From the NCBI GenBank assembly GCA_011046365.1, contig DSAS01000048.1, positions 1-43,786 of the forward strand: a DNA stretch of 43,786 nt, written 5' to 3'. This document shows, piece after piece, positions 8,999 to 32,355 of the stretch. The DNA comes from Fidelibacterota bacterium (GTDB lineage Bacteria; Fidelibacterota; UBA2242). The notes under the pieces were generated by a model. The model made no database searches. It saw nothing but the letters and a program-made list of their open reading frames with translations, and was not told the DNA's origin. Every line of letters starts with the position of its first letter. Position 1 is the first letter of the stretch. The position numbers and the translations under genes were made by a program.

Positions 8999-10972
8999 CT
9001 ATTTTAAATAGAGCATCGGTTTAACGGTCTGTTGCACCGAATTTAAATTTAACTGGTAAAAATAGATCCCGGCACTAACCTTTTTTCCGCGTGAATTGGT
9101 ACCGTTCCAGACAATCTCAGCCAGTCCGGCGGGGAGCAGGTCCGCAACCAACTCCGTAATTATGGCACCTTTCAAATCAAATACCAGCAACTGGACATTT
9201 TCCGGGCGGGTCAGAATAATCGGAATAGTGGTATGATCATTGAAGGGATTAGGATAATTTTTCCCGATATAAAGATGAGGCGTCAACTTCTCAATAACGG
9301 AATTATCCACCAAGGTAAAAACCATTTTCCGCAAATTGAATCCGCCCTTGATAAAATTCAGTTTAAGAGTATGATTCCCACTGGGAAGTTCCACCGATTC
9401 AATGGTAATAGTCTGCCAGTTTTGCCAGTCCCCGGTATTGGGAATGCTCACCGATTCGCTAATTACCTGATCATCCAATAATACTTGCATATTTCCGGTA
9501 ACGGTAGAGCTGGCGATTTGGAAACCCAGGTTATATTTTCCACCATAGACAATCGTCACAGTATAATTCAACCACTCCCCATCTTCAATCCAGCCAATAT
9601 TATATAACCCGGAGTTTTTTTCAATATCAACACCATCGTTCCGAAAGGCGGAGCCGCGATTCCAGGGCTGGTCGGCATCCCAGCGGACTTTTTTATAGTC
9701 CTTGTCAAAATAGGCGATCCCGTTATTACCTAAATCATAATGCTCCGCCTCGATAGTCCCGGGTATTATGTTCAGGCTAAACGGTTTTGATACGGTTCCG
9801 AATTCCGGATCAGTAATAGCAGCAATCACATCCGGTCGAAAGCTACAATTTTCTAGTTTCAGATTATTCGCCATACCGGTCATTGCTGAGATGGCAAAAG
9901 ACCTGGACGGTTTGGCTGCATTACCCTTCCAATAATCAATGATTTGCTGATATTCCGGGGTAATAGTTGCCGATAACGGACTGGTAACCGTTTCAAACTT
10001 TTTATGCGCCCACCAGTTCCAGCCGATATTCTGCTGTTCCATCAACTGGATTGTCTCATAATACCACCCATTGGAATTTTCACCACTTTCACCCAGCCAG
10101 AGCGGTGTGACGGTCTGGGTTCGCAGGTTCCGGTATTGCTGAATAGAACCAAGATCAGTTTCATTCCAATATTTATGAAACGCCCAGACCATATTGCTGT
10201 CAAAGCGGGGTGCCAATCCGCTGAAATCCGTCGCATACCAGTTCCCTTCGATAAACAATATATGATTGGTATCTACTTCCCGCACCGCACCGGCAAGGCA
10301 AATATAAAAATCACGCAAAACAGTGTTGGCATAGCCCTCCGGCAGCACCGGTTCATTCAGCAGATCGTAGCCGATAATCCACTCCTCATCGGCATAATAA
10401 GCGGCGATACGTTTCCAGATTTCGATTGTCCGATCCTGATTAGCCGGCTCTGTCCATAACCGGGCTTCACCGTCGCTGTCACTGATATTTCCATAATTCT
10501 GTCCACCGGGAGCACAGTGCATATCGAGAATCAGATAGAGATTGTTGCGCTTGCACCAAACCAGCAGCGTATCAATAATCTCAAATCCGGTATTAATGAA
10601 AACACCCGGAGAATCTATCGGCGAGAAAAATTCATAATGAAAGGGCAGGCGAATATGATTGAAGCCCCAATCAGCAATCAGTTTGATATCTGCTTCAGCA
10701 ACATAATTTTTCCGGTATAATTTGAAGAACTTTGCCGTTTCCTCTGCCCCGATTACATCAATAATCTGATTTCTGATATACGACGGCGAACCGTGACCGG
10801 GAGTGTGGAGCATATAGCCCTCCGGAACCAGCCAGCCGCCCAGACCGTAACCCTTCAGGATTATCTTGTTTCCACCAGTATCAAGAATATCAAACCCCAG
10901 TGTTTTAAAAAAACCGGCATATAGCTGCAGGCTGATCAGCATTAACAGGGCAATTCTGACAATTTTATTCAT
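8999..10972 (-). CDS. GH5-type glucanase with CBM6-like module and T9SS sorting domain
   Basis: Secreted multidomain beta-glucanase, last gene of the large minus-strand run. A signal peptide (1-20) precedes a GH5 barrel with LKGYGLGGWLVPEGYM, FNHIRLPFHYEF, acid/base E in DLLNEPVLP (about 207), and nucleophile E in WLGESGEN (about 294). The GLGGWL start recalls GH5 exo-1,3-glucanases. Residues about 405-540 resemble a CBM6 beta-sandwich (IEAEHYDLGNNGIAYFDKD, then NIGWIEDGEWLNYTV). The last 90 residues are the T9SS type A domain (NYPNPFNDHTTIPI, ending KPMLYLK). A ribosome site AAGGAT lies ten bases before the ATG. The gap to the upstream gene is 12 bases. Substrate linkage (1,3 or 1,4) cannot be settled from sequence. 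Confidence 0.8.
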   Translation of the reverse strand: MNKIVRIALLMLISLQLYAGFFKTLGFDILDTGGNKIILKGYGLGGWLVPEGYMLHTPGHGSPSYIRNQIIDVIGAEETAKFFKLYRKNYVAEADIKLIADWGFNHIRLPFHYEFFSPIDSPGVFINTGFEIIDTLLVWCKRNNLYLILDMHCAPGGQNYGNISDSDGEARLWTEPANQDRTIEIWKRIAAYYADEEWIIGYDLLNEPVLPEGYANTVLRDFYICLAGAVREVDTNHILFIEGNWYATDFSGLAPRFDSNMVWAFHKYWNETDLGSIQQYRNLRTQTVTPLWLGESGENSNGWYYETIQLMEQQNIGWNWWAHKKFETVTSPLSATITPEYQQIIDYWKGNAAKPSRSFAISAMTGMANNLKLENCSFRPDVIAAITDPEFGTVSKPFSLNIIPGTIEAEHYDLGNNGIAYFDKDYKKVRWDADQPWNRGSAFRNDGVDIEKNSGLYNIGWIEDGEWLNYTVTIVYGGKYNLGFQIASSTVTGNMQVLLDDQVISESVSIPNTGDWQNWQTITIESVELPSGNHTLKLNFIKGGFNLRKMVFTLVDNSVIEKLTPHLYIGKNYPNPFNDHTTIPIILTRPENVQLLVFDLKGAIITELVADLLPAGLAEIVWNGTNSRGKKVSAGIYFYQLNLNSVQQTVKPMLYLK

Positions 10973-10984: not shown

Positions 10985-13939
10985 TTATCGTAAAAACAGA
11001 CACTTTTTAATATCATGAACACTCTCAGAGGCTAGCTGAATAAAATAAATCCCCGAACTCACCGTTAAACCCTTCGTATTCTTTCCGTCCCAAACAAGCT
11101 GATGGTTTCCCGCCGTCAAATGCTGTTTTATTGTTCGAATTAAACACCCGTTGACATCATAAATGAACAACTCAATTTGCCGGGAATCCGGCAGGCTGAT
11201 TTCGATCAAAGTTCGGGAATTAAACGGATTCGGGAAAATCCGCATCAGGCGGCATTTCTCAGGAATAATTACCGTTTCCACCGCATTTTCTTCAATCCGA
11301 TCACCAAACGCTTCAATTCCAAACCAAACTGTGGGCATCTGTAACTGATTCAGTAAAATACTGAATCGTCCATCTCCATCCGGTAAGATGGTTGCCGGAT
11401 GACCGTTTTCCATACCGTTACCATCCAGTCCAAAAACATGCAGCGAGTCGGCACTGATGTTCAACTTCACAGAGACAATCACCGGCTCAATTTCCGTCGG
11501 TGCATGACCCCAGTTATCGTGAAAGGTCTGCATTCCATCCCACAGCATGCCCTGATTCTGTATGCGGGTAGAAAGTGTTATTAGCGACGTTTTCGATATT
11601 CTCAGCGGGCGATTCTGCAGTGAAATCCAGGTCAGTGTGGCAACATTACCTGCCCCAACCAGTTCCAGGTCACCTACAATCAGATTTTGATAATCATGCA
11701 GCCAGCCAGTCAGACCAATAATTTTCGGTGTATTAACCGTAAAAAGATCGTTATCCCAGATTAATTCACCGGTATCTGTTGTCACCGGAAACGCCGGTGT
11801 ATAACTCACGGGCTTGATTCTCTGTAGCGCTTCAAAACTCTCAATCTTCAAAGCATGCTGCAATGCCAGCGACTGAGCAACCGGAAAATGACCGGTCCAG
11901 GAGCCGCCATCATTCTTGGGAGCCAGCAAAATATCATCGGGATGGTAGCTGATTGTTATAACCTCATTAGCCGGCTGGATACAGGCTGTGCGGAAGGCTT
12001 TGGCGCAGGTTGGCAGCAAAGCCATCATCACCGTATTCCGATGAATGCTAAAATAACTGCTGATAAAATCGGTTTCCCAATCATCCGACGAATTACCGTT
12101 ATAATCAAACAGTATCACACCATCAATATCATGAAATCCGGCATAGGCGGCTGCCATCAGGACTCCCTCGGTCTGGAACCTGTTCGGGAAGGGATGATTA
12201 TACTCGCTGACGGTATAGGGTTTGCCCTGAACCGGAACGCCGCCAAACAATGCACTGACCGTTCCGCCGATTTTACTGGTGAGCATGGAAGTATTGTGGA
12301 TCAGCCAGTCGGTACCTGACCAGGGCTCATTGGGAAACTGCGGATGATCCCAATAGGCATGATTATCAACATAATCCAGACGCGCCTGACTCACAAGATC
12401 GCCGATCCCCACATTCCAGTTCGTCCCGGTAATTGGTACCCGAACACCCAGGTCGCTTTTTAAAAATGTCGCCATTTCGTTGAACAATTCATCCTGCAGT
12501 CCGATGTAAAAGGAAGAAATATCTCGCACCCTGGCATCGGTATAACTCAGACATTCACGGTAAGCAATCCGGCGCACATTCCGGTTCTCCAGCGTTTCGT
12601 CACCCTCCAGTCCCACAACTGCCGGTTTCCCGAAAAATACATTATCAAACCAGAAAGCGCCGCTGGTGAGACCGAAACTAAATGCCAGACGGGTATTATC
12701 GGCACACATTGCAGGCGCCCGGAAGGTGAATTGGAACTCACACCACTCGGTCGTTATTTGAAAACTCCTGCCGGCGAACCAGGTCCACGGACTGGAATTT
12801 TGCAGGATCGCTAATTCAATTTCCCGCGTGGCATCAGAACGGGCGACAAAGGAAACTACATAGACCGAATCCTGTTCGATCGTCAGCGCCGGCTGTTTCC
12901 ATTGCAGATGCCAGCTTTCGGTTCCCGGTTGCAGAATCGTGATTCGGGCACATTGCTCACCCTCATAGGCATCGGCAACCCGGGTCATCAGTGCATTGGC
13001 ATTGTTATGCAATTCCATCTCCCAGTTGCCCGCCAGTGGCAGTGATTCAAAACCGCCGTCCGGAATCTGATTGACGGGGACAATCGCAGCAGCGCTCTGA
13101 TTCCAGGCAGAATCCAGGGTTTCGGTTGTCCCGTATTTTACGGACAGAAAATTCAGCCAGCGGTCATCCAGCATCCGGTTATGGCGTCGGGTCAGTTTAC
13201 CGCCCTCACTGAAATGTTTCAGTCCATCGTCCCGCCACATTCGATAAAGTGAATTTTCATTGACGATTTCAACCATTGCCATCACCGGATCGTTCACCAG
13301 CGCCAGTCTGGTATAGGGATTCACATGGGTTAGCAGTTGCCGGGCATACTCCTTCTGCAACGCGATTAAATCCGGATCAAACAGATTGACACCCTTACCA
13401 AAATCCTGTAACGAATCGGCATCGGGAATTCCATCGGCGACTTTAACAGTTCGGGAACAATGCAGATTGATATTGGCGTAAATACCATTCTGTTTCAGCA
13501 TACTGATCAGATATTCCAAACGATCGAGGGTCAGTGGATTCAGATGACGCGTGTCCTGTCCCCACTCGAATAGACTCTCTCTACTCCAGGGATTGTCCAT
13601 GTGATGAAAGCGAACCAGGTTTATTCCCATCTTGCGCATCCGACCGGCAATCAAACCGGCTTTGGCTTTGGTCGGGAAAGCGCCATCCGCCGCCAGATTC
13701 ACACCCAAAAACCGAATCCGGCGGTCCTTTACCGCAAAATGTCCCTCGCTGTTTACCATTACAAATTCATCCGCCTCAATCGGATCAACCGGAAAAGAGG
13801 GCAGAAATTTCTGCGTGCTGGAGTCATTTGCCGGTAAATAAAATTGAAAAACATTTTCAAAATTTTGCGCCACGCCTGGCTGAGCCACAATCATTAAGAT
13901 AAAGAGAAAAAATGCTTCCGCCGGATGTTTATTTTTCAT
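10985..13939 (-). CDS. Large clan GH-A glycosidase with inserted carbohydrate-binding module and T9SS domain
   Basis: 984-residue secreted enzyme. A signal peptide (1-24) leads into a barrel starting RRIRFLGVNLAADGAFP, NLVRFHHMD. The probable acid/base glutamate is in VEIVNENSL (about 229) and the nucleophile in YTVSEYNHP (about 577). The catalytic residues are far apart because residues about 295-445 form a separate CBM4/9-like sandwich (IPDGGFESLPLAGNWEMELH) inserted in the barrel. Beta-sandwich material follows, then a T9SS type A domain (IFPNPFNSRTLIEI, ending KKCLFLR). The exact GH family is uncertain, GH5-like or a related GH-A family. It starts one base after the preceding GH3 stop and has no clear ribosome site, so translational coupling is likely. 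Predicted to be surface attached and to act on a polysaccharide. Confidence 0.7.
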   Translation of the reverse strand: MKNKHPAEAFFLFILMIVAQPGVAQNFENVFQFYLPANDSSTQKFLPSFPVDPIEADEFVMVNSEGHFAVKDRRIRFLGVNLAADGAFPTKAKAGLIAGRMRKMGINLVRFHHMDNPWSRESLFEWGQDTRHLNPLTLDRLEYLISMLKQNGIYANINLHCSRTVKVADGIPDADSLQDFGKGVNLFDPDLIALQKEYARQLLTHVNPYTRLALVNDPVMAMVEIVNENSLYRMWRDDGLKHFSEGGKLTRRHNRMLDDRWLNFLSVKYGTTETLDSAWNQSAAAIVPVNQIPDGGFESLPLAGNWEMELHNNANALMTRVADAYEGEQCARITILQPGTESWHLQWKQPALTIEQDSVYVVSFVARSDATREIELAILQNSSPWTWFAGRSFQITTEWCEFQFTFRAPAMCADNTRLAFSFGLTSGAFWFDNVFFGKPAVVGLEGDETLENRNVRRIAYRECLSYTDARVRDISSFYIGLQDELFNEMATFLKSDLGVRVPITGTNWNVGIGDLVSQARLDYVDNHAYWDHPQFPNEPWSGTDWLIHNTSMLTSKIGGTVSALFGGVPVQGKPYTVSEYNHPFPNRFQTEGVLMAAAYAGFHDIDGVILFDYNGNSSDDWETDFISSYFSIHRNTVMMALLPTCAKAFRTACIQPANEVITISYHPDDILLAPKNDGGSWTGHFPVAQSLALQHALKIESFEALQRIKPVSYTPAFPVTTDTGELIWDNDLFTVNTPKIIGLTGWLHDYQNLIVGDLELVGAGNVATLTWISLQNRPLRISKTSLITLSTRIQNQGMLWDGMQTFHDNWGHAPTEIEPVIVSVKLNISADSLHVFGLDGNGMENGHPATILPDGDGRFSILLNQLQMPTVWFGIEAFGDRIEENAVETVIIPEKCRLMRIFPNPFNSRTLIEISLPDSRQIELFIYDVNGCLIRTIKQHLTAGNHQLVWDGKNTKGLTVSSGIYFIQLASESVHDIKKCLFLR

Positions 13940-13940: not shown

Positions 13941-15809
13941 TCAATAGGTCAACCCGTAGCCGTATTCATAAAGCGGCTCATATTCGGCGTCACCGACGTT
14001 CACCGGAATCTGGTCCATGCTTCCCGGCCAGGAATGGGACAACTTGCCCGTCGGTGCATAGTCACCAAACAACACATCAGCGACGCCGGCCCCTTCGGTA
14101 CCCGGCAGCCAGGCGGCTACAATTCCATCGCAGAGGAGGATTAAATTATCCAAAATCAATGGACGCCCTGAGACAATCACGACCACAGTGGGGATCCCCG
14201 CTGATCTTAAGTTTATAACCGTTGTAATATCCTGTTGGGAAAAGTTCAAATCACTGCGATCACCGACCCCTTCGGCATAGGGTGTCTCACCAATTACAGC
14301 GATGGCAATATCAGCCGTCCCCGCGTCAAGCCCATCCTGCGAGTAGGTCACCTGGATAGAATCTCCGGCTCGTTGTTGAATCGCTTCTAGAATTGTTGTC
14401 CCAGGAGTAATCGCGCCGGAACTGCCCTGCCAGGAGATTGTCCAGCCGCCGCACTGATTGCCGATATCATCGGCGTTTTTCCCGGCAACGTGAATATGCC
14501 GCACCTGATGGCTGACAGGCAGCACCTGATTATCATTTTTAAGTAAAACCAGCGACTGGCGGACACACTCCCGGGCGATATCCCGATGCGTCTGCGAACC
14601 GATTCCGGCTGTCAAAGACCGGTCGGCGAACGGATTTTCGAACAGTCCCAGCGCAAATTTCTGCCGGAGAATCCGGCTAACCGCATCATCAATCCGCAAC
14701 TCAGAAATTTTACCCTGATTTACCAGCTGAAGGGTAGTAGCCAAAAATTCCTGATAACGCTGCGGCAGCATGATCATATCAATTCCGGCATTAACAGCGG
14801 TTTCAATATCACTGCCGAAATCCCCCGGCAGTTGATCAATCCCACTCCAGTCGGACACCAGAAATCCATTAAAACCCAGCTCATCCTTCAATACCGTCGT
14901 CAGCCAGTAGGAGTTGCCGTGCATCTTTTCACCATTCCAACTGCTGTAAGATGCCATTATCGAGCCGGCACCGGCGTTAATTGCGGCTATATAACCCGGT
15001 AGATGAATCCGGCGCATGGTGGTTTCATCCGCTTCCGTATTGCCCTGATCGTGCCCGCCGGTGGTACCACCATCACCCAGAAAATGTTTGGGACAGGCTA
15101 AAATAGCCGAATTATCCGCCAGATCACCGCCCTGATAACCGGTAACCGCGGCAGCTGCCATCATCTCTGCCAGTTCCGGCGTTTCACCAAAACCTTCGTA
15201 AGTGCGTCCCCAGCGTTCATCCCGCACTACGGCGATACAGGGTGAAAAGGTCCAGCGAATACCGGTTCCTGCCACCTCCTCCGCCGTTGCCCGGGCAGCC
15301 CGCTGTACCAGATCGGGATTACGCGTACAGCCCAATCCGATATTATGGGGAAAAATCACGGCGCCGTAAACGTTATTATGACCATGAACCGCGTCAATGC
15401 CATAAAGTAAGGGAATTCCCAGACGGGAGTTAAGAGCCTGAATTTGAAACCTGTCTACCATATCCGCCCAGGCAGACGGCTGATTAACCGCCGGCACCGA
15501 CCCACCACCACTGAGAATACTGCCGATCCCGTAAGTCTGGATATCCACTTCATTTTGTAAAAAACCGCGGTCAATCTGGATCATCTGACCGATCTTTTCA
15601 GCCAGTGTCATCCGGGCGAGGAGGTCTGTAACCCGCTCTTCTATACTACGACGGGGATTTTTATAAATTTCAGTGTAACGGGGACCGGTAGAAGCCTCTT
15701 TCGTGCAGCTTGCTGCCAGAAAATACAATCCGATCAGTAAACAGACATAGATTGGATTTAGCCAGAAGTAACGGCATTTTTGGTCATTTCTTTTGAAAGA
15801 CCCGTACAT
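13941..15809 (-). CDS. GH3 beta-glucosidase / exo-glucanase, lipoprotein
   Basis: Retaining exo-beta-glucosidase of family GH3, 622 residues. After a membrane-spanning signal it has a lipobox-like LAASC. The (alpha/beta)8 domain carries MTLAEKIGQMIQID, GIDAVHGHNNV, KHFLGDGGT, and the nucleophile aspartate in GFLVSDWSGI (about 319). The second alpha/beta domain (LVLLKNDNQVLPV to LSHSWPGS) is present. There is no C-terminal fibronectin domain, as in plant ExoI-type glucan exohydrolases. It should release glucose from beta-1,3/1,4 oligosaccharides, probably in the periplasm or on a membrane surface. The ATG overlaps the end of the GH16 gene by 26 bases and has GGAAG seven bases upstream. Confidence 0.85.
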   Translation of the reverse strand: MYGSFKRNDQKCRYFWLNPIYVCLLIGLYFLAASCTKEASTGPRYTEIYKNPRRSIEERVTDLLARMTLAEKIGQMIQIDRGFLQNEVDIQTYGIGSILSGGGSVPAVNQPSAWADMVDRFQIQALNSRLGIPLLYGIDAVHGHNNVYGAVIFPHNIGLGCTRNPDLVQRAARATAEEVAGTGIRWTFSPCIAVVRDERWGRTYEGFGETPELAEMMAAAAVTGYQGGDLADNSAILACPKHFLGDGGTTGGHDQGNTEADETTMRRIHLPGYIAAINAGAGSIMASYSSWNGEKMHGNSYWLTTVLKDELGFNGFLVSDWSGIDQLPGDFGSDIETAVNAGIDMIMLPQRYQEFLATTLQLVNQGKISELRIDDAVSRILRQKFALGLFENPFADRSLTAGIGSQTHRDIARECVRQSLVLLKNDNQVLPVSHQVRHIHVAGKNADDIGNQCGGWTISWQGSSGAITPGTTILEAIQQRAGDSIQVTYSQDGLDAGTADIAIAVIGETPYAEGVGDRSDLNFSQQDITTVINLRSAGIPTVVVIVSGRPLILDNLILLCDGIVAAWLPGTEGAGVADVLFGDYAPTGKLSHSWPGSMDQIPVNVGDAEYEPLYEYGYGLTY

Positions 15810-16641
15810 AATCTACTTCCATGCGCTGCGGAAAACTTGTTGTATTATCGGGATTCCCGGGCCAATTGCCCCCCACGGCTACATTCAACAAGAGATGAAA
15901 ACGCTGATCAAAGGGCGCCGGATAAGCATGTCTGGTCGAATACCAGGAAGTCTGGGTCTGATAAAGCATATTATCAACATACCAGCGAAATTGAGTGCTG
16001 TCCCAATCAAGTGTGAAGGTGTGAAAACCGGTAGCAAACGTACCATTGGACAATGAGTAGGAATCACCAGTATGGACATTATTCGGCCATTCCCCACCGT
16101 AATGCAGCGTGCCATAAACCTTTTGGGGTTCGTGACCAAGCAGCTCCATAATGTCAATTTCACCGCTGGCTGCCCAGCCGCCATAAACCCAATCTGTCGG
16201 CAACATCCAAATCGCCGGCCAAAGTCCCTGCCCACAGGGTAATTTGGCACGAATTTCAAAACGCCCGTATTTCCAGTCACCCCGGTTCTTTGTCCGCAAC
16301 CGGGCAGATGTATATTCGCGGGTCCCTTCCGGTCCCGTGTAATTTTCCTTTATCGCCTGAATCACTAAAACCGAATCCTCAATCCAGGAATTTTGAAACC
16401 GATCTGTATAATATTGCAATTCGTTATTGCCACCACCCAGGGCGTTGACCTCGTGTTCCCACTTTGTCAGATCAATCTCAGCACCGTTAAATTCATCATG
16501 CCAGACCAGTTCATAACCTTCAGGTATTGGGATGGTATCAGCAGCCTGGGAATTGCCGTGATTCTCAGCAATGCCACCGCATCTCAACATCAGGCAGAAG
16601 GAAAACAGCCAGAGCGCAGTCAGTTTAATATTCGTCATCAT
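15784..16641 (-). CDS. GH16 laminarinase (endo-1,3-beta-glucanase), lipoprotein
   Basis: Endo-beta-1,3-glucanase of family GH16, about 285 residues. The N-terminus has a lipoprotein signal with a cysteine at MLRCGG. The jelly-roll is in normal order: LVWHDEFNGAEIDLTKWEHE, YTSARLRTKNRGDWKYGRFE, GLWPAIWMLP, and catalytic SGEIDIMELLGHEP. The E-I-D-I-M-E spacing, with the extra methionine bulge, marks laminarinase-type rather than lichenase-type GH16. Nucleophile and acid/base are the two glutamates (about 162 and 167). The track start (TTG 16653) lies inside the previous gene. I prefer ATG 16641, one base after the upstream stop; ATG 16638 is also possible. No T9SS domain, so it probably acts in the periplasm or on the membrane surface. 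Confidence 0.88.
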   Translation of the reverse strand: MMTNIKLTALWLFSFCLMLRCGGIAENHGNSQAADTIPIPEGYELVWHDEFNGAEIDLTKWEHEVNALGGGNNELQYYTDRFQNSWIEDSVLVIQAIKENYTGPEGTREYTSARLRTKNRGDWKYGRFEIRAKLPCGQGLWPAIWMLPTDWVYGGWAASGEIDIMELLGHEPQKVYGTLHYGGEWPNNVHTGDSYSLSNGTFATGFHTFTLDWDSTQFRWYVDNMLYQTQTSWYSTRHAYPAPFDQRFHLLLNVAVGGNWPGNPDNTTSFPQRMEVDYVRVFQKK

Positions 16642-16642
16642 T

Positions 16643-18898: not shown

Positions 18899-18924
18899 AA
18901 TAAATATTTTCCTTCTTTGTTCAA

Positions 18925-20724: not shown

Positions 20725-20736
20725 GGAAAAATCCAC

Positions 20737-22376: not shown

Positions 22377-23474
22377 CTAAAAAATAACGCCAAGGGTATA
22401 GGAATGCGTGTTACCGAGAATTCCAACCGGTTTGAAAGCATAGTCAACTTTAATGGCGTAATTGTTCAGGAAATTCAACTTCAGCCCGCCACCAAAAGTA
22501 CCCCCGAATTCTGTTTCGTCCATGAACAAAGATTTATAACCGCCACGCAGAAAGAAACTCCCGCTGCCCGGAATTGTGATGGCATATTCAGCCCCGACAT
22601 TCACCGACTCGGCATTATTATTGGGGTGGAGTGCATCTGCAGCCAGGGTAAGACGCGTATAGCGGGTCACCAGCGGTCGAACCGAGACGCCAATCCGGAA
22701 AATCAACGGCAGCTCCCATTCCTGCAAGTTAAACTTGCCTTTAACAGAACTATAATTACCAGCCTCATTGGGCAGAATATCAATCGGAAATAACAGGTCC
22801 ATACCGTCATAACGCATCCGGGAGCCATAATTGGAAATGCTCATCCCAATGCGCATTCCATCCTCATATTTATTCGTCACGGAAAAGAATCCGGTATTCA
22901 CATTCACCCCCAAATCAACCGCCATAGCAGAGGCAGAAGTATGCCAAATTTGAGAACTAATATACTTCGCAGAAGCCCCGAACGCAAACCACTGCGCCAG
23001 TTTGCGGGCAAAGGTAACACTAAAACAGTAGTCATTGGCAGTATACAATTCACCGGTGCCATCCTGATTTTCCAGGGTCGTCACCGGTTCATTACCATAA
23101 CCAACATGATTCATCGCCAGAGCAAAAGTACCCGCTGACGGTGATATATAGGCGACGGCTACAAATTCATTGCTGATATCCACTACCCAGGGTTGGTACA
23201 TGAACAGCACTTCATTGCGATCCATAAAAGCCAGCCCCGCCGGATTCCAGTACACCGACGAAAGATTACCGACCATGCTCACATAAGATTCGCCCATGGC
23301 ATTACCGTCACTGCCGACGCCCAGCTCCAGAAAGTTTGCCGCAGTCGTGCCTACACGGTAGGGTTTCTGCGCCTCAAGTAAACCGGTCTGAAGCAGAAGA
23401 GTAACTATAAGTATACCAAAGAATATAGTATGCTGAGGGAGTTTCTTATTGCTGTATTTCATTAACGCTCTCAT
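22377..23474 (-). CDS. PorV/PorQ-family outer-membrane beta-barrel protein
   Basis: Outer-membrane barrel of the FadL-like PorV/PorQ family, 365 residues. A signal peptide (about 1-36) is followed by the family-typical start TTAANFLELGVGSDGNAMGE and YVSMVGNLSSVYWNPAGLAF. Alternating beta strands continue to a barrel-type end (SYTLGVIF). In Porphyromonas, PorV shuttles T9SS cargo to the attachment complex. Paralogues beside cargo genes are common in non-Bacteroidota FCB lineages. It sits 18 bases after the 1.1 kb-residue cargo gene and close to the TonB receptor, so these three probably work as one outer-membrane set. The start is supported by AGGGA seven bases upstream. Confidence 0.85.
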   Translation of the reverse strand: MRALMKYSNKKLPQHTIFFGILIVTLLLQTGLLEAQKPYRVGTTAANFLELGVGSDGNAMGESYVSMVGNLSSVYWNPAGLAFMDRNEVLFMYQPWVVDISNEFVAVAYISPSAGTFALAMNHVGYGNEPVTTLENQDGTGELYTANDYCFSVTFARKLAQWFAFGASAKYISSQIWHTSASAMAVDLGVNVNTGFFSVTNKYEDGMRIGMSISNYGSRMRYDGMDLLFPIDILPNEAGNYSSVKGKFNLQEWELPLIFRIGVSVRPLVTRYTRLTLAADALHPNNNAESVNVGAEYAITIPGSGSFFLRGGYKSLFMDETEFGGTFGGGLKLNFLNNYAIKVDYAFKPVGILGNTHSYTLGVIF

Positions 23475-23492: not shown

Positions 23493-26400
23493 TTATTTAA
23501 TAATGGCAAATTTGCCGACCTTTTCATCCCTGGTCAGTTCGGACTGGACATGATAAATATACATGCCTGCCGCAACTTCAAGATTTTCCCGCGTCAGCAA
23601 ATCCCAGTGGGCAATTCCGTTTTCGGCGCTGTTATTTACCTGGATCACGTCCACCAAGACCCCACTGACTGTGAAAATCCGAATGGTACAGCGGGCTGGT
23701 AGATTGGTAAACATAATCCGGCGTCGCTGATTGAGAAACCAGTTGGCAACGGATGTCTCCATGGCATTGGTCGCCACATAGGGGTTGGGCACTACTTTAA
23801 TATCTTTCATCGTGTGCTTTAACGCCTGTCGGTCAATGGAATCGGTTTTAACAATACTAAACCGGATTTTATCGGTTATATAAAAGGGGCGCATAAAGGT
23901 GACCCGGTAAACATCATTTGCCTTAGGCAACAGGTCTGCGTTTCCGTAGGCTGACAGAAAATCAATAGCAAAGACGCTGCCTACCCATTTTCCGCTACTA
24001 TCCAGAGCACCCACATAAATCCGGTCTTCCAGAATATCGTACTGACCATTTTTATTCAGATCATGTACAATTAGATCCATCATTTCCAGCGAGTCTGTAA
24101 ATGATTTATTGACAACATAAAAATTGAAATCCTCACTCGTCAGCAGATCACGGGTTTGGCGGACGTGGTCAATATCCCTTATCCAGGAAGTACTGCCTTT
24201 GCCCGTATAGCTGACATCATCGGTGAAAATTATATCATAATCCCACGGGAAATAGCGAGACTCTGTTTTTGTCGGCGTAACCGTAATCGGCGCTGAACCG
24301 ACTACCCACTTTGAAACGGCATTATTATACTGGGCTGTTCGAACCGGCATCTGAATGTTCAGTACCAATCCATCAAATACATCCGTTTTAATATTCCCGA
24401 TCGTATTGATATACCAATTCCCCAAGGTGTCATCATAGACCAGATTGGTCCCGGTAAAATTGTCGGAATTTTCCAGATACACCTCATTAGAATCAGTGAC
24501 ATCAAAAACCCGGATACTGTTGTTGCTATAATAAACTCCATGATCATAATTTTCGATAACTCCCAGGGTATCCAGACCGAAACTCACTTCGTAGTTGTGT
24601 CCCGGTTTCAGACTGCTGTTGGCGATAATTTCAGGGACAACTGTGCCTGATCCAAGAATTTCCTGAACCGCGGACATCATGACTTCCTCCGGAATATAGC
24701 CGGCGGCTTTTTGATGCGGGGTCACGACCTGAACGTTTTTACTGTAACCCTTGACATTTTCGGCTTCATCCAGACTGATGATGATATTATTTTCCGAAGG
24801 TGCGATGCCGGGTCCGATATCCGGAGCACCGTAATCGTAGGCGACAATGGCATAATAGTAGGTGCGCCCATTTTGGACATTAGTGTCTTCAAACCAGTGG
24901 CGGATCCCGGAATCGGTGCCGAGGTTATAGCCCATTCCGTTGACCAGCCCAAAGTCTGTAAATCCCATCCGACCGTCTTTTTTGTCACACTGGAAAATGG
25001 GTTTCATAAACATCGGAGTTCCATAGCCGTCGGTAATCACCTGTGCGTCCGACATTTTTTTATCCGTGGCACGAAACAGTTTGTAGCCCTCAAAATCATT
25101 GACATTACCGACAAAGGGATCCCGGGTTTTAGTATCGGCGATATTATCCCAGGTCAGAATAACCCGACCGTCACCGGCAGTGGCTTGCAGCGTGGGCATT
25201 TTCGGCGGCTGGGCAAAGCGGTAATCCTTTTCGTAAATCACCTGCACGATGCGCTTCAGTTCAAAGAGCGCCGGTGCCGAGTGCTCATCCGAATTGAGTC
25301 CTTCGAGGGGATCGTAAGAATGCAATTCCGACATGGAAATCCGTTCCCGGCGCCCCTGGTAAAGCGGGAATGGTCCGGAGGCAAAGGTTTCCACCAGGTT
25401 GCTGATATTGCCCAGATATTCGATCAGGGTATCGGAACCAATCACTTCCCACATTGATTTGTCATTCCGAAACCATTTGGTATAGGGTGGACGATGGGGC
25501 GGGATCGGAAAGAGTTGAAAGGCGGTCAATCCTACCATATCGGATTCACTGACATCGAGAACGGCAAAATTGGGTTCACAACCAATCCCTTCAACATAAT
25601 CCGGCTTGTGATTACACTCGCCTTCGTCGGGTCCATAATAATTCAATTCGCCGGGTGCTACACCATCCAGACCGATATCATCGCCGGCATATTCCCCGGC
25701 ATCATATATGCCGTTTCCATTTAAATCTTCGCCATCCTGCCAGTCCTGATCTTCATCCGCATCCCAGTGCTCTTTCAGGTCCGCTTCGGTTAACCGGTAA
25801 AATCTTAAAAAATCAGCCAAATTCGCGATGCCCTCGTAGGGTCCGACTTTTCTTGTAGCGATATTATCCCGTCTTTCATCAACTAAACCATCCCCGTCGT
25901 TATCAATCCCGTCATCAGGGAGTCCCGGACTCTCCAGATATGCAAAGCCCATCGTTCCCGTTGGGTAACCGCCCTGACCGATACCGTCAATATCCCAGGA
26001 ATACGCCATATCAATACTGCGATCGAAATAGCCCAGTTCATCGTCATCGCCGGCACCGGCAACATTGTCGCCGATAGCATTGTCAACCCAATAGCCGAAG
26101 GCAACTTCAGGCAGGTCATAATCAGAAATGTTGGCAATGTTATACTCCCAGAAAATCGCATCCCGCGCCTGGGGATTGTTCCATTGAAAACCGCGCTGTT
26201 CCACCCGAATTCCGATGCCGCCCCAGGGTTTGCCATACTGGACCGTCACGGAGGGTCGTTTATCACCGATAAAGACACCCGGACGCGGATAATATTTAAC
26301 CCGGTCTTCGGGACCTAAATACTCCTGATCCTGGGCATCATTGGCAACGAAATAGGTCTCCAGATCGGCATAAATCACACCCCTGCCAAAGCGTCCGTCC

Positions 26401-26951
26401 CATTCCCCTTGCCACTTGAGCTGATCACCGGCAGCCGGCCAACCTGCCGGCGGCCAAGAAAGCGAATCATTGCTCATAGCCGGTGTTTCACTATGTTCAT
26501 TAAAATACCCAAAGACCGGATAAAGTCCCCACTCAATCTGTCCCGTCGGGTCTTTATCCATCTCCTCACGATAATGAGTCTGCAGAAAATAGAGCGTGTC
26601 CAGTTTCCCTTCATCGTTCAGGCTTTGGCGCTCATCGGAATCGGTAACCGGAATCGTATCCTGTGTGATAAAAACCTGAGCACCGATCAGCAATGCAACT
26701 CCATCCAACATCTTGGTGCCTTCATAGGTATCCGGCCATTTAGAAACCTCTACTTTCGGCCAGTCGGACAACTGGGTAGTATTTTTAAAATACAAAAATA
26801 CCCGGTTGCCGGTCATATAGCCTTCGCGAATAGCCGCCGGATCACCGGCAGGGTCATCGGGTCCTTCATATTTTTTACCCTGTCCCAGCAGGATGCTGGA
26901 AAGTAGGGTTAAAGAATAGATCAATGCGTAAAATCCCGGCATTAATTTCAT
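23493..26951 (-). CDS. Very large T9SS cargo protein paired with TonB receptor and PorV
   Basis: About 1150-residue secreted protein of unknown biochemical role. A signal peptide (MKLMPGFYALIYSLTLLSSI) is followed by a long N-terminal region with calcium-loop sequences (DGIDNDGDGLVDERRDN and EDLNGNGIYDAGE). A fibronectin-III-like segment starts near PTLQATAGDGRVILTWDNI. The end is a T9SS type A domain (KVVPNPYVATNAMETSV, ending VGKFAIIK). It lies between the TonB receptor (50 bases away with this start) and PorV. By analogy to SusC-SusD pairs, it may be the surface partner of the receptor; that is inference. ATG 26951 is chosen over ATG 26999 because it begins the signal peptide and has AGGAG upstream. 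Confidence 0.75.
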   Translation of the reverse strand: MKLMPGFYALIYSLTLLSSILLGQGKKYEGPDDPAGDPAAIREGYMTGNRVFLYFKNTTQLSDWPKVEVSKWPDTYEGTKMLDGVALLIGAQVFITQDTIPVTDSDERQSLNDEGKLDTLYFLQTHYREEMDKDPTGQIEWGLYPVFGYFNEHSETPAMSNDSLSWPPAGWPAAGDQLKWQGEWDGRFGRGVIYADLETYFVANDAQDQEYLGPEDRVKYYPRPGVFIGDKRPSVTVQYGKPWGGIGIRVEQRGFQWNNPQARDAIFWEYNIANISDYDLPEVAFGYWVDNAIGDNVAGAGDDDELGYFDRSIDMAYSWDIDGIGQGGYPTGTMGFAYLESPGLPDDGIDNDGDGLVDERRDNIATRKVGPYEGIANLADFLRFYRLTEADLKEHWDADEDQDWQDGEDLNGNGIYDAGEYAGDDIGLDGVAPGELNYYGPDEGECNHKPDYVEGIGCEPNFAVLDVSESDMVGLTAFQLFPIPPHRPPYTKWFRNDKSMWEVIGSDTLIEYLGNISNLVETFASGPFPLYQGRRERISMSELHSYDPLEGLNSDEHSAPALFELKRIVQVIYEKDYRFAQPPKMPTLQATAGDGRVILTWDNIADTKTRDPFVGNVNDFEGYKLFRATDKKMSDAQVITDGYGTPMFMKPIFQCDKKDGRMGFTDFGLVNGMGYNLGTDSGIRHWFEDTNVQNGRTYYYAIVAYDYGAPDIGPGIAPSENNIIISLDEAENVKGYSKNVQVVTPHQKAAGYIPEEVMMSAVQEILGSGTVVPEIIANSSLKPGHNYEVSFGLDTLGVIENYDHGVYYSNNSIRVFDVTDSNEVYLENSDNFTGTNLVYDDTLGNWYINTIGNIKTDVFDGLVLNIQMPVRTAQYNNAVSKWVVGSAPITVTPTKTESRYFPWDYDIIFTDDVSYTGKGSTSWIRDIDHVRQTRDLLTSEDFNFYVVNKSFTDSLEMMDLIVHDLNKNGQYDILEDRIYVGALDSSGKWVGSVFAIDFLSAYGNADLLPKANDVYRVTFMRPFYITDKIRFSIVKTDSIDRQALKHTMKDIKVVPNPYVATNAMETSVANWFLNQRRRIMFTNLPARCTIRIFTVSGVLVDVIQVNNSAENGIAHWDLLTRENLEVAAGMYIYHVQSELTRDEKVGKFAIIK

Positions 26952-27001
26952 TGATTTACGATCTCCTCTGGCGTCTGTATTTGATATAACGTTAGACATA
27001 A

Positions 27002-29746
27002 TTAAAACTCAATTCCAAGACCAACTTTGATCAGCCGTGGCGCTGAATACATACCGGGGTTTTGAATCCGGTCCAGGTAATCATTGAAAACACTCTTATG
27101 ACTGTTCAGGTCGGTCTCCCGGATGATTGCCGTGTAGGCTCGCCCGGTTTGACTGTTCACATATCCTTCATTCAACCGATCCAGCAGATTATAAATTGTC
27201 AGGGTCAGTTTGGCATTTACCCGATCGGACAGTGCAATATTGTAATGACCGTTCAAATCAAATCTGATTTGTGCGGGCATGGTGGAATTATTTGGTAATA
27301 AATTCACCCGGAACAGCATAGTGTTGCTCACCGGAGACCAGGTATAGGGCGTTCCGGATTCATAATAGCCGGTCAGGGTAGCACCAAACTTTTTAGTATT
27401 ATATCCCGTTGTAACGTTCAGCGTGTGACGCTGGTCCCAGGACATGGGAATCATCTGGTTGACCGGGTCAATACTATCACCGGCACGGTTATAAGTCATG
27501 GTGGGATTATCGGCATTCCCGCGGGTATATTGAAGCGTATAATTCAGATTTACAAAAAATTGGTGATAGATGTATTTGTACTTAACCTCAAGACCACGGG
27601 CGTTACCGTAGTCCTTATTCGTATACAGACCGTATTCTGTTTGATTATATGTACTGACAACCTTGACGCTCAGCAAATCATAAATATCACGGTAGTATAG
27701 CGCCACTTCCAGGTCCATTCCGCTCATCAATTCCTGCCAGAGTCCAATTTCATACTGGACTGTTTTCTGGGCGTTGATCGTCGGATTTCCCAGGATGGTT
27801 TCATAATCAGTAGGCGAAATCCGATAGGAGTTACCGACATAAAGCGCATATCCCGGCGGCATCTGAAAGAAGTGCCCATAGCTAAAATGCAACACCGCCG
27901 TCGAGCCCAACTGATATGAAAGTCCGAGACGGGGACTGATTTGAGTCTTTGGCTTGGCATAGACATATTCCGACATTTTTTCCGGATTATCGGGAAATCG
28001 GATTTGATTGGCGGGGTTCCGCCATTGACTCGGGTAGCGTTTATCCGGCTCAAAATAGTCGTAGCGTACCCCTACATTGATAACCATGTTATCGAATTCC
28101 ATTTTATCCTGAAGATAGACTGAATATTCAATGGGCTTCACATAAATAGAATCGGTGTAAATCGTGGTATCATGCAGGGTCGTCGGTTCGTAATTGGGGA
28201 AAATGATCTTTGTTTTCCCGTCAATCAGACGGATTTCAAACTCCCCTTCAAGGTCTGTATCTCTGTAAATATTTTGAATTTGACGCTCCTTGCTATCAAT
28301 GATATGACCGGTATAGTGTAGACCGGTTTTAAAACTGTGATGTTTATTCATCTGCCAGGTCAAATCAAATTTGGCATTTTTATCAATCATCGTCCGCATG
28401 GTATGATGCTTCTGCTGTCCGCCGGTGAAAAAACCCGGTCCGTCACTCTGATTGTAGACATCATGGACATAAAGGGAATCGGTGGGATTTTTATAAACAT
28501 AATTACCATAATAATTATCAACATAAGATAGTTTCAATTCGTAAAACAGGGATCTGCCCAACATGTGGTTGATATTCAGGGCAACCATTTTTGAGAAACG
28601 GCGTGGCGTTGCCAACCCATCGGGATTATATTTGTATTGGTGATTGTACTGACCCCAAAGGTTTTTATTGATGGTAGTCAATAATGAAATTTTAAAATTC
28701 TTAAACAATTGGGAAGATAACTTACCCATAAATGATGATTCGACATTACGGTTCATGGGTACATAGGCGCTGTCACCGTTAAATTCATAATACCACAGTG
28801 CCGGATTATCTTCACCATAATAGCTAAAATCATCCACATTAAACAAACGGTAGCCATTGAGGTGGTTTTTATTATCCTGATGACGAAAATTGACCAGAAA
28901 GAACAGCCGGTTCTTCAGTATTGGTCCGCTGAGGTTGAGCTTATAATCCTGATTACGGGTAATTTCACCCGGCTTCAGACCGATGAAGATATCATCGTGA
29001 GATGTGTAATAATTGCCCATTGCTCCTGACATTGAACCATGAAAAGTGTTATCACCAACCTTGGTTACGGCATTCACTATTCCGCTCATGGCTTTACCAT
29101 ATTCGGCATTAAAAGTACCGGTGATAACCTCCAGGTCCTGAATGGACTCCGGCTCCAAATCCACCGACCGACCCTCGCCGCCAAATCCTTCGTCCACCGG
29201 AATACCGTCAATCATATAGGATACTTCCGTTGGACGTCCTCCCCGGAAATGACCTTTTACTACTCCGGCTTGCATGGATACGACATCACTAATACTTTCG
29301 ATTGGTAACGCTTCAATTTCATCGGACGAAACGTTTTTGACCGTACTGGTCTGATCCTTCCTGACCGAAATTTTCTGAGCCGTCACAATGACCTCTTGAC
29401 CCTCAAGTACAGTTGCAGTCATCCCAATTTCCAAATACTCGGTTCGATTAACTGAAACCTGAACTTCCTGCACCGTAACAGGATTGTATCCAATCATCTG
29501 CGCCCTCACCGAATAACTTCCAGGTCTGACATTGATGATATAAAAATCGCCGTTTTCATCCGCCGCCGCCCCCAGGGACGTCCCGACCAGGATGATATTT
29601 GCACCCGGTAAGGCATTGCCATTCGCTTTATCAAATATGCGCCCGGATATTTTACCGGTTGTTTGGGGATAGCTTATTATCGAACCGATCACTACAATCA
29701 AAGCGATCCAAAAACATTTACATTTTAAATTTGTTAATCGGACCAT
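27002..29746 (-). CDS. TonB-dependent receptor with N-terminal carboxypeptidase-regulatory-like domain
   Basis: Outer-membrane, TonB-gated importer, 914 residues. The signal peptide is followed by a CarboxypepD_reg-like domain (GKISGRIFDKANGNALPGAN, residues about 32-115), as in SusC-type transporters. Next is the plug (VSDVVSMQAGVVKGHFRGGR, then VITGTFNAEYGKAMSGIVNA), and a barrel of about 22 strands to the final RLIKVGLGIEF. The start has AAGGAA eight bases upstream. It is the second gene of the large run, after a stem-loop that follows the glycan-binding protein gene. It probably imports glucan oligosaccharides released by the GH16/GH5 enzymes. No SusD is encoded nearby. The substrate is inferred from neighbours only. 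Confidence 0.9.
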   Translation of the reverse strand: MVRLTNLKCKCFWIALIVVIGSIISYPQTTGKISGRIFDKANGNALPGANIILVGTSLGAAADENGDFYIINVRPGSYSVRAQMIGYNPVTVQEVQVSVNRTEYLEIGMTATVLEGQEVIVTAQKISVRKDQTSTVKNVSSDEIEALPIESISDVVSMQAGVVKGHFRGGRPTEVSYMIDGIPVDEGFGGEGRSVDLEPESIQDLEVITGTFNAEYGKAMSGIVNAVTKVGDNTFHGSMSGAMGNYYTSHDDIFIGLKPGEITRNQDYKLNLSGPILKNRLFFLVNFRHQDNKNHLNGYRLFNVDDFSYYGEDNPALWYYEFNGDSAYVPMNRNVESSFMGKLSSQLFKNFKISLLTTINKNLWGQYNHQYKYNPDGLATPRRFSKMVALNINHMLGRSLFYELKLSYVDNYYGNYVYKNPTDSLYVHDVYNQSDGPGFFTGGQQKHHTMRTMIDKNAKFDLTWQMNKHHSFKTGLHYTGHIIDSKERQIQNIYRDTDLEGEFEIRLIDGKTKIIFPNYEPTTLHDTTIYTDSIYVKPIEYSVYLQDKMEFDNMVINVGVRYDYFEPDKRYPSQWRNPANQIRFPDNPEKMSEYVYAKPKTQISPRLGLSYQLGSTAVLHFSYGHFFQMPPGYALYVGNSYRISPTDYETILGNPTINAQKTVQYEIGLWQELMSGMDLEVALYYRDIYDLLSVKVVSTYNQTEYGLYTNKDYGNARGLEVKYKYIYHQFFVNLNYTLQYTRGNADNPTMTYNRAGDSIDPVNQMIPMSWDQRHTLNVTTGYNTKKFGATLTGYYESGTPYTWSPVSNTMLFRVNLLPNNSTMPAQIRFDLNGHYNIALSDRVNAKLTLTIYNLLDRLNEGYVNSQTGRAYTAIIRETDLNSHKSVFNDYLDRIQNPGMYSAPRLIKVGLGIEF

Positions 29747-29821: not shown

Positions 29822-29877
29822 GAAGTATATTTTTACAAGTAGCGGGGTGCGGTAAAACCGCACCCCTATTATACTTC
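29822..29877. terminator. Strong stem-loop between the first and second operon genes
   Basis: GGGGTGCGGT (29844-29853) pairs with ACCGCACCCC (29857-29866) around a 3-base loop. An outer inverted repeat GAAGTATA (29822-29829) / TATACTTC (29870-29877) brackets it. No long T-run follows on the minus strand, so it may act as a partial terminator or as a 3' mRNA stabiliser for the upstream gene. The next gene starts about 75 bases further on and no clear new promoter is visible. Confidence 0.6.
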
Positions 29878-29886
29878 ATGGTAATG

Positions 29887-32355
29887 CTATTTCACAAGCA
29901 TCATTTTCTTGGTCTGTTTGAATACACCGGATTGAATCTGATAAAAGTAGATACCTGAGGGGAGATTTTCGGCGTTCCAGACTATATTGTAACTTCCCAT
30001 TACCTGATAATCATTGACGAGTTCTGCGACCTGTTGTCCGACCATATTGAAAATTCGGAGCGTCACATTTCCGGGGTGTGGAATCGTATACCTGATCTGA
30101 GTTGTCGGATTAAAAGGATTCGGGTAATTCTGTTCCAAGCGGTAAGATTTCAGAACTGTGCGATTATCTCCGGCTATTCCCGTTTCAGCAACATGAGTGG
30201 TATCACCGATCCAGGTGTGGCTCCATTCTGTCGGTGTCTGCCAGGCGTGATCGGTATTGAACGGCGACCACGCCAGGTTGCCGTCCCAGGCGCCGTCGTT
30301 ATCGTGGAAGTAGAGTTCAATCGGAATTCGCATGCCCCGCTTTGGATAAAACCGTTCATCATCCGGACCCGCAATGGAATCCAGCGGAATCTTGGTCTCA
30401 ATAACATAGTCAGAACCCCCAAAATGCTCCAGGTGAAAGAGCGGATCATCAACCGTCCAGATAGTATTGCCAATATATTCATTCACCAGTCCGTTGGCAT
30501 GCATTTGCAGTTTATAATCCGGTTCGGCACCCCGCTTATTGGACGTGTGCTTGGCACCCCGTGAATCGTAGAGTCCGATAAAGAATTCAAAGGCATCCTG
30601 ATTCCACCATTCACCTTCACCAAAGTTATACACATCATCAATCACATCCACGGCAACATACAGATAATCATTGTCAATGGCTAAAAATACCGTCGCAGTC
30701 AGGTCAGCGTCGTTGGTTACTGTTCCCACTGGTACGTTATCCGTTTCCGGAGTGAGTACCCACGGTACGATATCGCTGTCATACCATTCGGTCAGATCGC
30801 CGTCAACCGCAAAATTAGCCGGCACATCGAGCGAAATAGTCGGGATACCTTTAGCCGTATTGGTAATCGCACCCGATACTCCCGGAGGACCGTCATTTCC
30901 AAAGGCATCAACACAGACAACGGCATAATAATAGGTCATGTCGTGATCCTCAAGCGGGTAATAGAGGTAATGAATCGCATTCTGAGTACCTTCATAGACA
31001 CCCACAGCCACGGTTTCTACATTCGGCGCGGTGACATCGGTAATCGGTTCCTCACTGGCGTAAACATTATAGGTTTCACCATCTTCACCCACATTATCCT
31101 GCCAGATGACCAGATTGTAGTAGTCGGTGGACTGAACGGCGTCAACTCCCTGAACTTCTTCCGTACCGGTAATATCAATTATCGGATTGCCGGTCCAGAC
31201 ATAATCGAACAAAATGGTATTTCCCGCAACCGCATTACCAAATGCCATAAACTGGAATACGGAAACATTTGCAGAATCGAAATTGCTGGTTCCCTCATTA
31301 TAGAAGAAATCGGTTAATTTCAGGGCATACTCATGCCATTCACCATCATCAATGGGGTCAATTTTATAAGCCCTTTTGGCAGTACCGTCTTCGAACTGAA
31401 ACATAATAGTATCGGTACCGGCACTCGCCTTCATGGCAAATTTTAAAGAATCCACTCCCCATGACATCGTCATATCCTGAGGGGGATCAATATTAAAACC
31501 GGCACCGGACCAGCCATTACCCCACTCATCGCCCTGGACCCATTTCAGAGCATTGGAGCCGTCAATACCGGTGCCTTCTTCGACCTCAAGGGTGGATTGT
31601 CCCCAGGTAAATTGACCCAGCTTGACATTAAGGGCTTCTCCGGTAAAAATGACAAACGGTGCTGCCACCGCTCCTGTCAGCTTCAAATCATCCAGAATGA
31701 ATGCTCCGTGCACCCGTTCACCGGTTCCACCGCCGTTAATCGAGACTTCAAAGGAAAAACCTTTGATTTTGTGAAGATCGAGAGTCGCATTGCCGTCAAT
31801 GCCAGCCCAGCCGGTCAGGTTAAAGCCGTTGCCATCCCAGGAATCATTACTCACTAGGGGCAATTGAATCTTCTGCCAACCCGGTGCTTCGTCCATGATG
31901 TAGTGAAAGGAATAATAATATTCACACTGGCGAACATCGTAGGTCTTATTGCCTTCCACCGAATTACTGACATCGTGCAGGTTCAGGCGCAGATGTACCC
32001 GCCCGGTTGCCGATGCCGGTAATTCATTGTAATACATGAAAGAAATGGAATCGTAACCGGTAAAATCATACGTCGAATTGGAATCGGGATTCCAGTGTTC
32101 CAACTTGACAAAACCGCCCCAGCTCTCACTGTTCTGAGCACTGTAAACCACCTTAAAGGCGCTGTCGCCTGCTGCTACCGGATTTGCCACCATACTGGTC
32201 TGCATATAGGATGAATCTGCAATCGCATTATCACCCATAAAAATAGCCCAGTAGCTTGTGTCCGGAGCCGCCTCAAATCCGTTGATTACTTTCTGCCCGT
32301 ATGTGATACCGACAGCCAGCATCAACACCACCGCAATTAACAATTGTTTCTTCAC
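29887..32355 (-). CDS. Surface glycan-binding protein: tandem CBM-like modules, CBM9-like domain, T9SS domain
   Basis: First gene of the large run, about 822 residues, no recognisable catalytic motif. After the signal peptide (KKQLLIAVVLMLAVGITYG) come two related beta-sandwich modules of galactose-binding/CBM11-like type (VINGFEAAPDTSYWAIFMGD at about 22-230, and a second at about 235-390). A fibronectin-III-like segment follows (TDYYNLVIWQDNVGEDGETY). Then comes a CBM9-like domain (FAVDGDLTEWYDSDIVPW to EFFIGLYDSRG), and a T9SS type A domain (NYPNPFNPTTQIRY, ending KKMMLVK). It probably holds glucan at the cell surface. The start is moved from ATG 32370 to GTG 32355: the strong GGAGGAG site lies between them, just before the GTG that opens the signal peptide. 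CBM assignments are by pattern only. Confidence 0.72.
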   Translation of the reverse strand: MKKQLLIAVVLMLAVGITYGQKVINGFEAAPDTSYWAIFMGDNAIADSSYMQTSMVANPVAAGDSAFKVVYSAQNSESWGGFVKLEHWNPDSNSTYDFTGYDSISFMYYNELPASATGRVHLRLNLHDVSNSVEGNKTYDVRQCEYYYSFHYIMDEAPGWQKIQLPLVSNDSWDGNGFNLTGWAGIDGNATLDLHKIKGFSFEVSINGGGTGERVHGAFILDDLKLTGAVAAPFVIFTGEALNVKLGQFTWGQSTLEVEEGTGIDGSNALKWVQGDEWGNGWSGAGFNIDPPQDMTMSWGVDSLKFAMKASAGTDTIMFQFEDGTAKRAYKIDPIDDGEWHEYALKLTDFFYNEGTSNFDSANVSVFQFMAFGNAVAGNTILFDYVWTGNPIIDITGTEEVQGVDAVQSTDYYNLVIWQDNVGEDGETYNVYASEEPITDVTAPNVETVAVGVYEGTQNAIHYLYYPLEDHDMTYYYAVVCVDAFGNDGPPGVSGAITNTAKGIPTISLDVPANFAVDGDLTEWYDSDIVPWVLTPETDNVPVGTVTNDADLTATVFLAIDNDYLYVAVDVIDDVYNFGEGEWWNQDAFEFFIGLYDSRGAKHTSNKRGAEPDYKLQMHANGLVNEYIGNTIWTVDDPLFHLEHFGGSDYVIETKIPLDSIAGPDDERFYPKRGMRIPIELYFHDNDGAWDGNLAWSPFNTDHAWQTPTEWSHTWIGDTTHVAETGIAGDNRTVLKSYRLEQNYPNPFNPTTQIRYTIPHPGNVTLRIFNMVGQQVAELVNDYQVMGSYNIVWNAENLPSGIYFYQIQSGVFKQTKKMMLVK

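Follow-up and report, generated by a model that had tools for sequence, protein, structure and literature searches.

A candidate SusD-independent beta-glucan locus in Fidelibacterota that joins a TonB receptor to a T9SS-type surface protein and a PorV-family barrel

Introduction

The SusCD pair is the textbook route of glycan uptake in Bacteroidota, in which SusD is built around a helical TPR core. Such a core is described for BT_3984 (PMC2954216). The 1,3-beta-glucan PUL of Bacteroides uniformis encodes SusC, SusD and SGBP-B together with GH16_3, GH158 and GH3 enzymes and an HTCS (PMC7157763). The CUT loci of Xanthomonas and aquatic Proteobacteria feature a TonB receptor, CAZymes, an inner-membrane transporter and a regulator, with no SusD (PMC1790865). 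Surface attachment by outer-membrane barrels is known from the T9SS: PorZ and PorU retain their tails, through which they stay bound to the barrels PorQ and PorV, and genes for type B cargo are found in clusters with those for the cognate PorP/SprF barrels, which are thought to anchor the cargo (PMC10202324).

Here, we describe a locus from Fidelibacterota, a phylum with a cultured member, Fidelibacter multiformis IA91 (PMC11652737). It lies on contig C9 of a 2.68-Mb MAG (187 contigs, 89% complete); this whole stretch of 43,786 nucleotides is referred to below as the window. The locus resembles Bacteroidota PULs in combining a TonB importer, a surface binding protein, a surface GH16, a predicted periplasmic GH3 and a linked sensor-regulator, one locus per glycan, and its importer is co-located with substrate-matched CAZymes and a regulator, as in SusCD PULs. 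Unlike these PULs, it has no SusD and a non-SusC receptor, with a cargo protein and a PorV barrel in SusD's place; its surface enzymes would mostly be displayed by T9SS tails, its symporter is of the SSF family and its regulator is of the sigma-54 type. The window also contains the TonB receptor, CAZymes, inner-membrane transporter and regulator that define a CUT locus; whereas that definition includes neither an obligate surface protein/PorV pair nor T9SS display, the surface protein and barrel are conserved here. Based on sequence similarity and gene pairing, this pair is comparable to SprB-SprF (type B), PorZ-PorQ and PorU-PorV, in which a surface protein stays attached to the cell through its cognate PorV-like barrel, and, as in type B pairs, the cargo and barrel genes are clustered (PMC10202324). 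However, those pairs belong to motility or to the secretion machine, whereas the pair in the window accompanies a TonB receptor and genes for sugar breakdown.

Results and Discussion

Organisation of the locus

The minus-strand directon at 8999–32370 comprises eleven long ORFs, to which functions were assigned with Pfam and NCBIfam (Table 1). Adjacent ORFs overlap by up to 26 bp or lie up to 18 bp apart, save for two wider gaps of 98 bp (22279–22376) and 140 bp (29747–29886), and this spacing suggests co-transcription of all eleven. Transcription would proceed from the CBM9 protein through the TonB receptor, the 1168-aa cargo, the PorV-family barrel and the parvulin foldase to the GH16-malectin, GH3, GH16, GH3, GH-A/CBM4_9 and GH5-CBM6 enzymes. 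Because near-identical gene order is kept in the syntenic relatives L048, L064 and L101, the arrangement is not a product of chance. A previous sequence-only reading had proposed eleven one-strand genes with these functions, and the ORF map and family assignments bear it out. It had placed the operon at 8999–32355, of which 8999 is correct, whereas 32355 is an internal alternative start and the true end is 32370; similarly, its eleven genes stand but its directon does not stop at ~32.4 kb, as the same strand resumes past a 270-bp gap (32641–40955).

Table 1. Features of the locus, with the evidence for each assignment.
Feature	Coordinates	Strand	Evidence
GH5-CBM6 with T9SS tail	8999..10972	-	PF00150 3e-25; PF03422 1.7e-19; PF18962 21 bits (below cut-off)
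Clan GH-A enzyme, CBM4_9 and T9SS tail	10985..13939	-	PF02018 5e-12; PF18962 over cut-off; PF00150 weak
GH3, predicted lipoprotein (LAASC)	13941..15809	-	PF00933 3e-74; lipobox read in sequence
GH16, endo-1,3-beta-glucanase type (GEIDIMEL motif)	15784..16653	-	PF00722 4e-22; motif read in sequence
GH3 beta-glucosidase, Fn3-like domain, Sec signal, no T9SS tail	16643..18928	-	PF00933, PF01915, PF14310
Surface GH16 (lichenase-type motif ELDIEI), malectin and T9SS tail	18925..20736	-	PF00722 1.3e-26; PF18962 over cut-off; NF047856 154 bits
SurA/PrsA-type parvulin foldase, predicted lipoprotein	20737..22278	-	Profile match PrsA 4wo7 1.5e-4; Foldseek matches PrsA and SurA
PorV/PorQ-family outer-membrane barrel, dedicated to the trio	22377..23474	-	NF033709 209 bits, cut-off 90; PF19572 over cut-off; PDB PorV 6h3i_F 9e-22
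Cargo, surface protein (1168 aa) from an undescribed family, with Ca-type DxDxDG motifs and a C-terminal domain resembling those of PorZ and PorU	23493..26999	-	No Pfam; 47-member alignment; AlphaFold model
TonB-dependent receptor of the trio, not SusC subfamily	27002..29746	-	Pfam plug, barrel, CarbopepD_reg_2; TIGR04056
Perfect GC-rich hairpin (10 bp) between the CBM9 and TonB genes	29844..29866	-	Sequence GGGGTGCGGTTTTACCGCACCCC
Surface glycan-binding T9SS protein, CBM9 and type A T9SS tail (SGBP-like position)	29887..32370	-	PF06452 4e-13; PF18962 39.7 bits, over cut-off; TIGR04183 45 bits
GH3, upstream, likely same regulon	32641..34881	-	PF00933 4e-75
SSF sodium:solute symporter, likely inner-membrane uptake step	34895..36550	-	PF00474 2.8e-91
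Sigma-54 response regulator, likely regulator	36694-38136	-	PF00158, PF00072, PF02518 (jointly with kinase)
Histidine kinase, likely regulator	38151-39623	-	PF00158, PF00072, PF02518 (jointly with response regulator)

The sigma-54 response regulator, the histidine kinase and a solute-binding protein are consecutive at 36694–40955. The solute-binding protein, which also belongs to the upstream minus-strand stretch, may be part of the sensor. A scan for sigma-54 -24/-12 promoters returned 28 matches where 35 were expected, so there is no excess and no specific site is supported; sigma-70 and terminator scans yielded no decisive promoter. On the other strand, a converging group at 4143–8995 encodes a T9SS-tailed protein with weak GH similarity, an SSF protein and a GH5. 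A GH32-like protein (PF00251) is also encoded on the plus strand at 41163–42116.

The receptor and the absence of SusD

The TonB-dependent receptor scored 50 bits against the SusC/RagA subfamily model TIGR04056, for which the cut-off is 368. No match to SusD_RagB (PF07980) or SusD-like_3 (PF14322) was identified across the whole genome. SusD matches exceed the cut-off in 65 of 245 genomes of the phylum; all of these lie outside the family of the MAG, in whose 16 genomes PF07980 gave no match. Nor does the cargo qualify as a SusD: it has no Pfam match, its AlphaFold model is almost all-beta, and SusD is not among the 50 PDB matches listed for this model. As both defining proteins, a SusC-type receptor and SusD, are missing, the locus is not a SusCD PUL.

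The cargo protein

The closest named relatives of the cargo are encoded in Candidatus Neomarinimicrobiota MAGs (82% identity), which makes Marinimicrobia (Fidelibacterota) the most likely host; no Pfam model matches its family and no solved relative was found by sequence. The all-beta AlphaFold model (pLDDT 79, pTM 0.67) has PorZ (5m11) and PorU (6za2) as its top PDB matches in Foldseek, with low TM-scores over the full length, and contains no recognisable carbohydrate-binding fold. Complement, GH116 and other Foldseek matches were rejected as relatives, being generic beta-sandwich matches with low TM-scores.

The C-terminal domain (CTD) was scanned in 17 family members with NCBIfam models at a threshold of 1e-3. 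The PorZ model matched 12 of the 17, the PorU model one and the generic type A tail none; the PorZ match is confined to ~75 residues at the C-terminus and, at 23 bits, is under the family cut-off. The cargo of the window itself reached 18 bits against the type A model TIGR04183 (cut-off 23), and its CTD thus differs from the generic tail on the T9SS enzymes of the locus. Based on the analogy with PorZ and PorU, whose uncut tails stay in their barrels, the cargo should remain docked in its own PorV. Two short variants, of 671 aa (L115:5890-7905) and 725 aa (L118:4167-6344), have no Pfam match and keep the trio arrangement; a minimal cargo of this kind may show which part is essential.

The PorV-family barrel and the T9SS

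The barrel of the trio belongs to the PorV/PorQ family as defined by NF033709, whereas it scored only 81–82 bits against the PorV and PorQ equivalogs, for which the cut-offs are 220–250. As judged by sequence, it is a separate, trio-bound branch of NF033709. The genome encodes a T9SS core, including SprA (860 bits, cut-off 200) and the PorU sortase (707 bits, cut-off 420), and the Por_Secre_tail family has 77 matching places in it. Within the operon, this tail is found on four further proteins: the CBM9, GH16-malectin and GH-A proteins carry a type A CTD over the Pfam cut-off, and GH5-CBM6 falls below the curated cut-off. On contig C18 (L146:4223-7656), SprA lies beside two genes of the PorV/PorQ family and one for a protein whose tail resembles that of PorZ; together these are probably the core T9SS set, distinct from the PorV of the trio.

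Enzymes, foldase and substrate

The GH16-malectin protein is beta-glucanase-like, its NF047856 score lying under that model's cut-off, and the GH3 that bears a Sec signal but no T9SS tail would be periplasmic. Lipoboxes were read in the sequences of the foldase (LFGAC) and of one GH3 (LAASC). The foldase resembles the PPIase of a paralogous starch locus; such SurA/PrsA-type foldases frequently accompany the trio and may help large barrels or cargo to fold. Family assignments and motifs suggest 1,3- and mixed-linkage glucan as the substrate, given a GH16 with a lichenase-type motif, a GH16 with a laminarinase-type motif, the GH3s and GH5-CBM6. This GH16/GH3/GH5 set agrees with the enzyme complement of 1,3-beta-glucan PULs already characterised (PMC7157763).

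These results bear on the central proposal of the sequence-only reading, a PUL-like beta-glucan locus with T9SS parts in place of SusD, which finds support at the sequence level in the absence of SusD, the presence of a T9SS and the GH16, GH3 and GH5 enzymes. The SusD-less nature of the operon was confirmed, PF07980 and PF14322 being without a match genome-wide. The further suggestion that T9SS parts replace both SusD and surface lipoproteins holds only in part, as two lipoproteins are predicted from their lipoboxes.

The trio in other genomes

The cargo search retrieved 64 loci, and the genomes that hold them bear the labels Marinimicrobia, KSB1, Calditrichota, Ignavibacteriaceae, Melioribacteraceae and Bacteroidota. 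Both the TonB receptor and PorV lay at most three genes from the cargo in 35 of the 38 outside loci with room (39 such loci with four exceptions, L073 being left out because it ends before a possible PorV). Nineteen loci with distant cargos were fetched from other genomes of the phylum, and in all 18 that had DNA on both sides the three genes were together. The cargo profile matched 231 of 245 genomes of the phylum (92 of the 94 good ones), as compared with the 65 that have SusD. The search for TonB/cargo/PorV triads near GH16 and GH3 that had been put forward as a test was positive, in several phyla. Across 55 trios, pairwise divergences correlated at 0.86 for cargo-TonB, 0.80 for cargo-PorV and 0.95 for TonB-PorV, values reached by none of 1000 permutations. 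This fits a unit inherited together, although linkage alone would account for part of the correlation and the loci are mutually related. Taken together, the locus and the trio module are well supported: the TonB receptor, cargo and PorV form a near-obligate trio that appears to be a general sugar-uptake module beyond one operon. In the literature covered, which includes few subscription journals, we found no description of the trio in connection with Marinimicrobia PULs, PorV/TonB/glycans or SusD-less systems, an absence that is not proof. The cargo gene or trio also appears on contigs labelled Euryarchaeota, Thermoplasmata and Caldisericaceae (L065, L108, L062 and L082), most likely from mis-binned or mislabelled MAGs.

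Paralogous trios in the same genome were located by search and region retrieval. A starch version on contig C27 features a GH13 lipoprotein, PPIase, TonB, cargo, PorV, a CBM20 T9SS protein, SSF and a GH13-T9SS protein. A pectin-like version on contig C7 combines GH88, PorV, cargo and TonB with a pectate-lyase-like T9SS protein and a hybrid two-component regulator, and the versions on contigs C13 and C110 carry LamG/LTD T9SS proteins. The same-strand neighbours of the trio in other genomes are likewise rich in sugar-related genes (SBP/ABC permeases, LacI, GH13, GH97, GH77, GH43, GH30, GH92 and GH2) and include nucleoside hydrolases. GH16 occurs near 17 of the 22 cargos at least 60% identical to that of the window, as against 5 of the 24 below 60%; in L055, L074 and L105, with cargos 63–77% identical, GH16 is absent from the retrieved DNA. 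This tie of GH16 to a cargo subfamily and the re-use with starch and pectin-like sets recall the logic of PULs, in which a single transport core is combined with enzymes suited to the substrate. The trio is present also among phylum-mates of streamlined genomes and beside nucleoside hydrolases, so not every copy need serve glycans. Eight inosine-uridine nucleoside hydrolases lie in the flanks of the distant loci L055-L109, which suggests that the solutes handled by some trios are not glycans but, for instance, nucleosides.

Proposed mechanism and alternatives

We favour, with a probability of roughly 0.6, a locus for beta-glucan (1,3- and mixed 1,3/1,4-linked) with a SusD-independent module made up of a TonB receptor, a T9SS-exported cargo and a dedicated PorV barrel, accompanied by a parvulin foldase. 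At the cell surface, glucan would be bound and cleaved by the CBM9 protein together with the T9SS-displayed GH16, GH5 and GH-A enzymes. The cargo would be exported by the T9SS, left uncut by the sortase and docked through its PorZ-like CTD in its own PorV barrel beside the TonB receptor, where it would catch oligosaccharides and deliver these to the receptor, in the way that SusD serves SusC. By this analogy, the cargo is most likely a lid that does SusD's job. The GH3 and lipoprotein enzymes would complete digestion in the periplasm, and the SSF symporter would import the sugars. Docking and glycan capture by the cargo, localisation, induction and the exact substrate are the elements that we infer in this scheme.

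A simpler account would make the cargo a mere T9SS substrate, such as an adhesin or structural protein, with PorV as its export helper and a TonB receptor that imports alone. We consider this unlikely, although it has a precedent in the CUT loci of Xanthomonas, where TonB receptors and CAZymes work without SusD (PMC1790865), and is compatible with the failure to recognise a binding domain in the cargo. An independent adhesin would need neither the near-invariant TonB-cargo-PorV adjacency (35/38 and 18/18) nor the re-use of the whole trio with starch and pectin-like sets, and the cargo CTD is unlike that of free T9SS enzymes. The resemblance of this CTD to those of PorZ and PorU, which both belong to the attachment complex, could also mean that the trio is mainly an export or assembly unit, in which the PorV paralogue, foldase and cargo display the T9SS enzymes of the locus in the manner of a PorQ-PorZ-like attachment complex and TonB powers or senses the process. 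The foldase and the several T9SS-type proteins in the operon would suit such a unit; we nevertheless judge it improbable, as trios also stand beside sugar ABC-transporter runs with few T9SS enzymes (L126-L129) and a PorU sortase is already encoded in the genome, along with distinct PorV/PorQ-family genes next to SprA. Finally, the link between CAZymes and envelope genes is drawn from the genes themselves, and an ordinary CAZyme cluster could lie beside unrelated envelope genes by chance. Long-distance synteny (L048, L064, L101, L061 and L063), the adjacency counts and the GH16 association statistics make such a coincidence very hard to credit.

Under the favoured SusD-independent reading, a marine phylum that neighbours Bacteroidota, abundant and largely uncultured, appears to rely for glycan uptake on a partner of the TonB receptor derived from the T9SS. 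If true, this would amount to a second architecture of lid and transporter, assign a role to the PorV paralogues and a function to a very common protein family that lacks a Pfam model, and allow surveys that count SusC/SusD pairs to find glycan uptake that is now missed. Whether Marinimicrobia and their KSB1, Calditrichota and Ignavibacteria relatives share a phylum-wide importer of this kind (TonB receptor, T9SS-secreted non-lipoprotein lid and a PorV barrel holding the lid), evolved independently of SusCD, is in our estimation an even call.

A hairpin upstream of the TonB gene

The wider gap before the TonB gene contains a perfect hairpin (Table 1), likely an attenuator or mRNA-processing element. 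Strong hairpins were identified in 22 of 42 TonB-upstream gaps, compared with 17 of 218 same-strand gaps elsewhere that are similar in size, and are thus about six times commoner upstream of TonB genes (Fisher 1e-10, an optimistic p-value because the loci are related); they occur in 0.4% of shuffled gaps. Hairpins in L048, L052, L083, L095, L098, L137 and L143 keep this position, with unrelated sequences. A possible role for TonB-upstream hairpins in general is that of an attenuator or differential mRNA stabiliser, and the one in the window may cause the surface protein and the transporter to be expressed at different levels.
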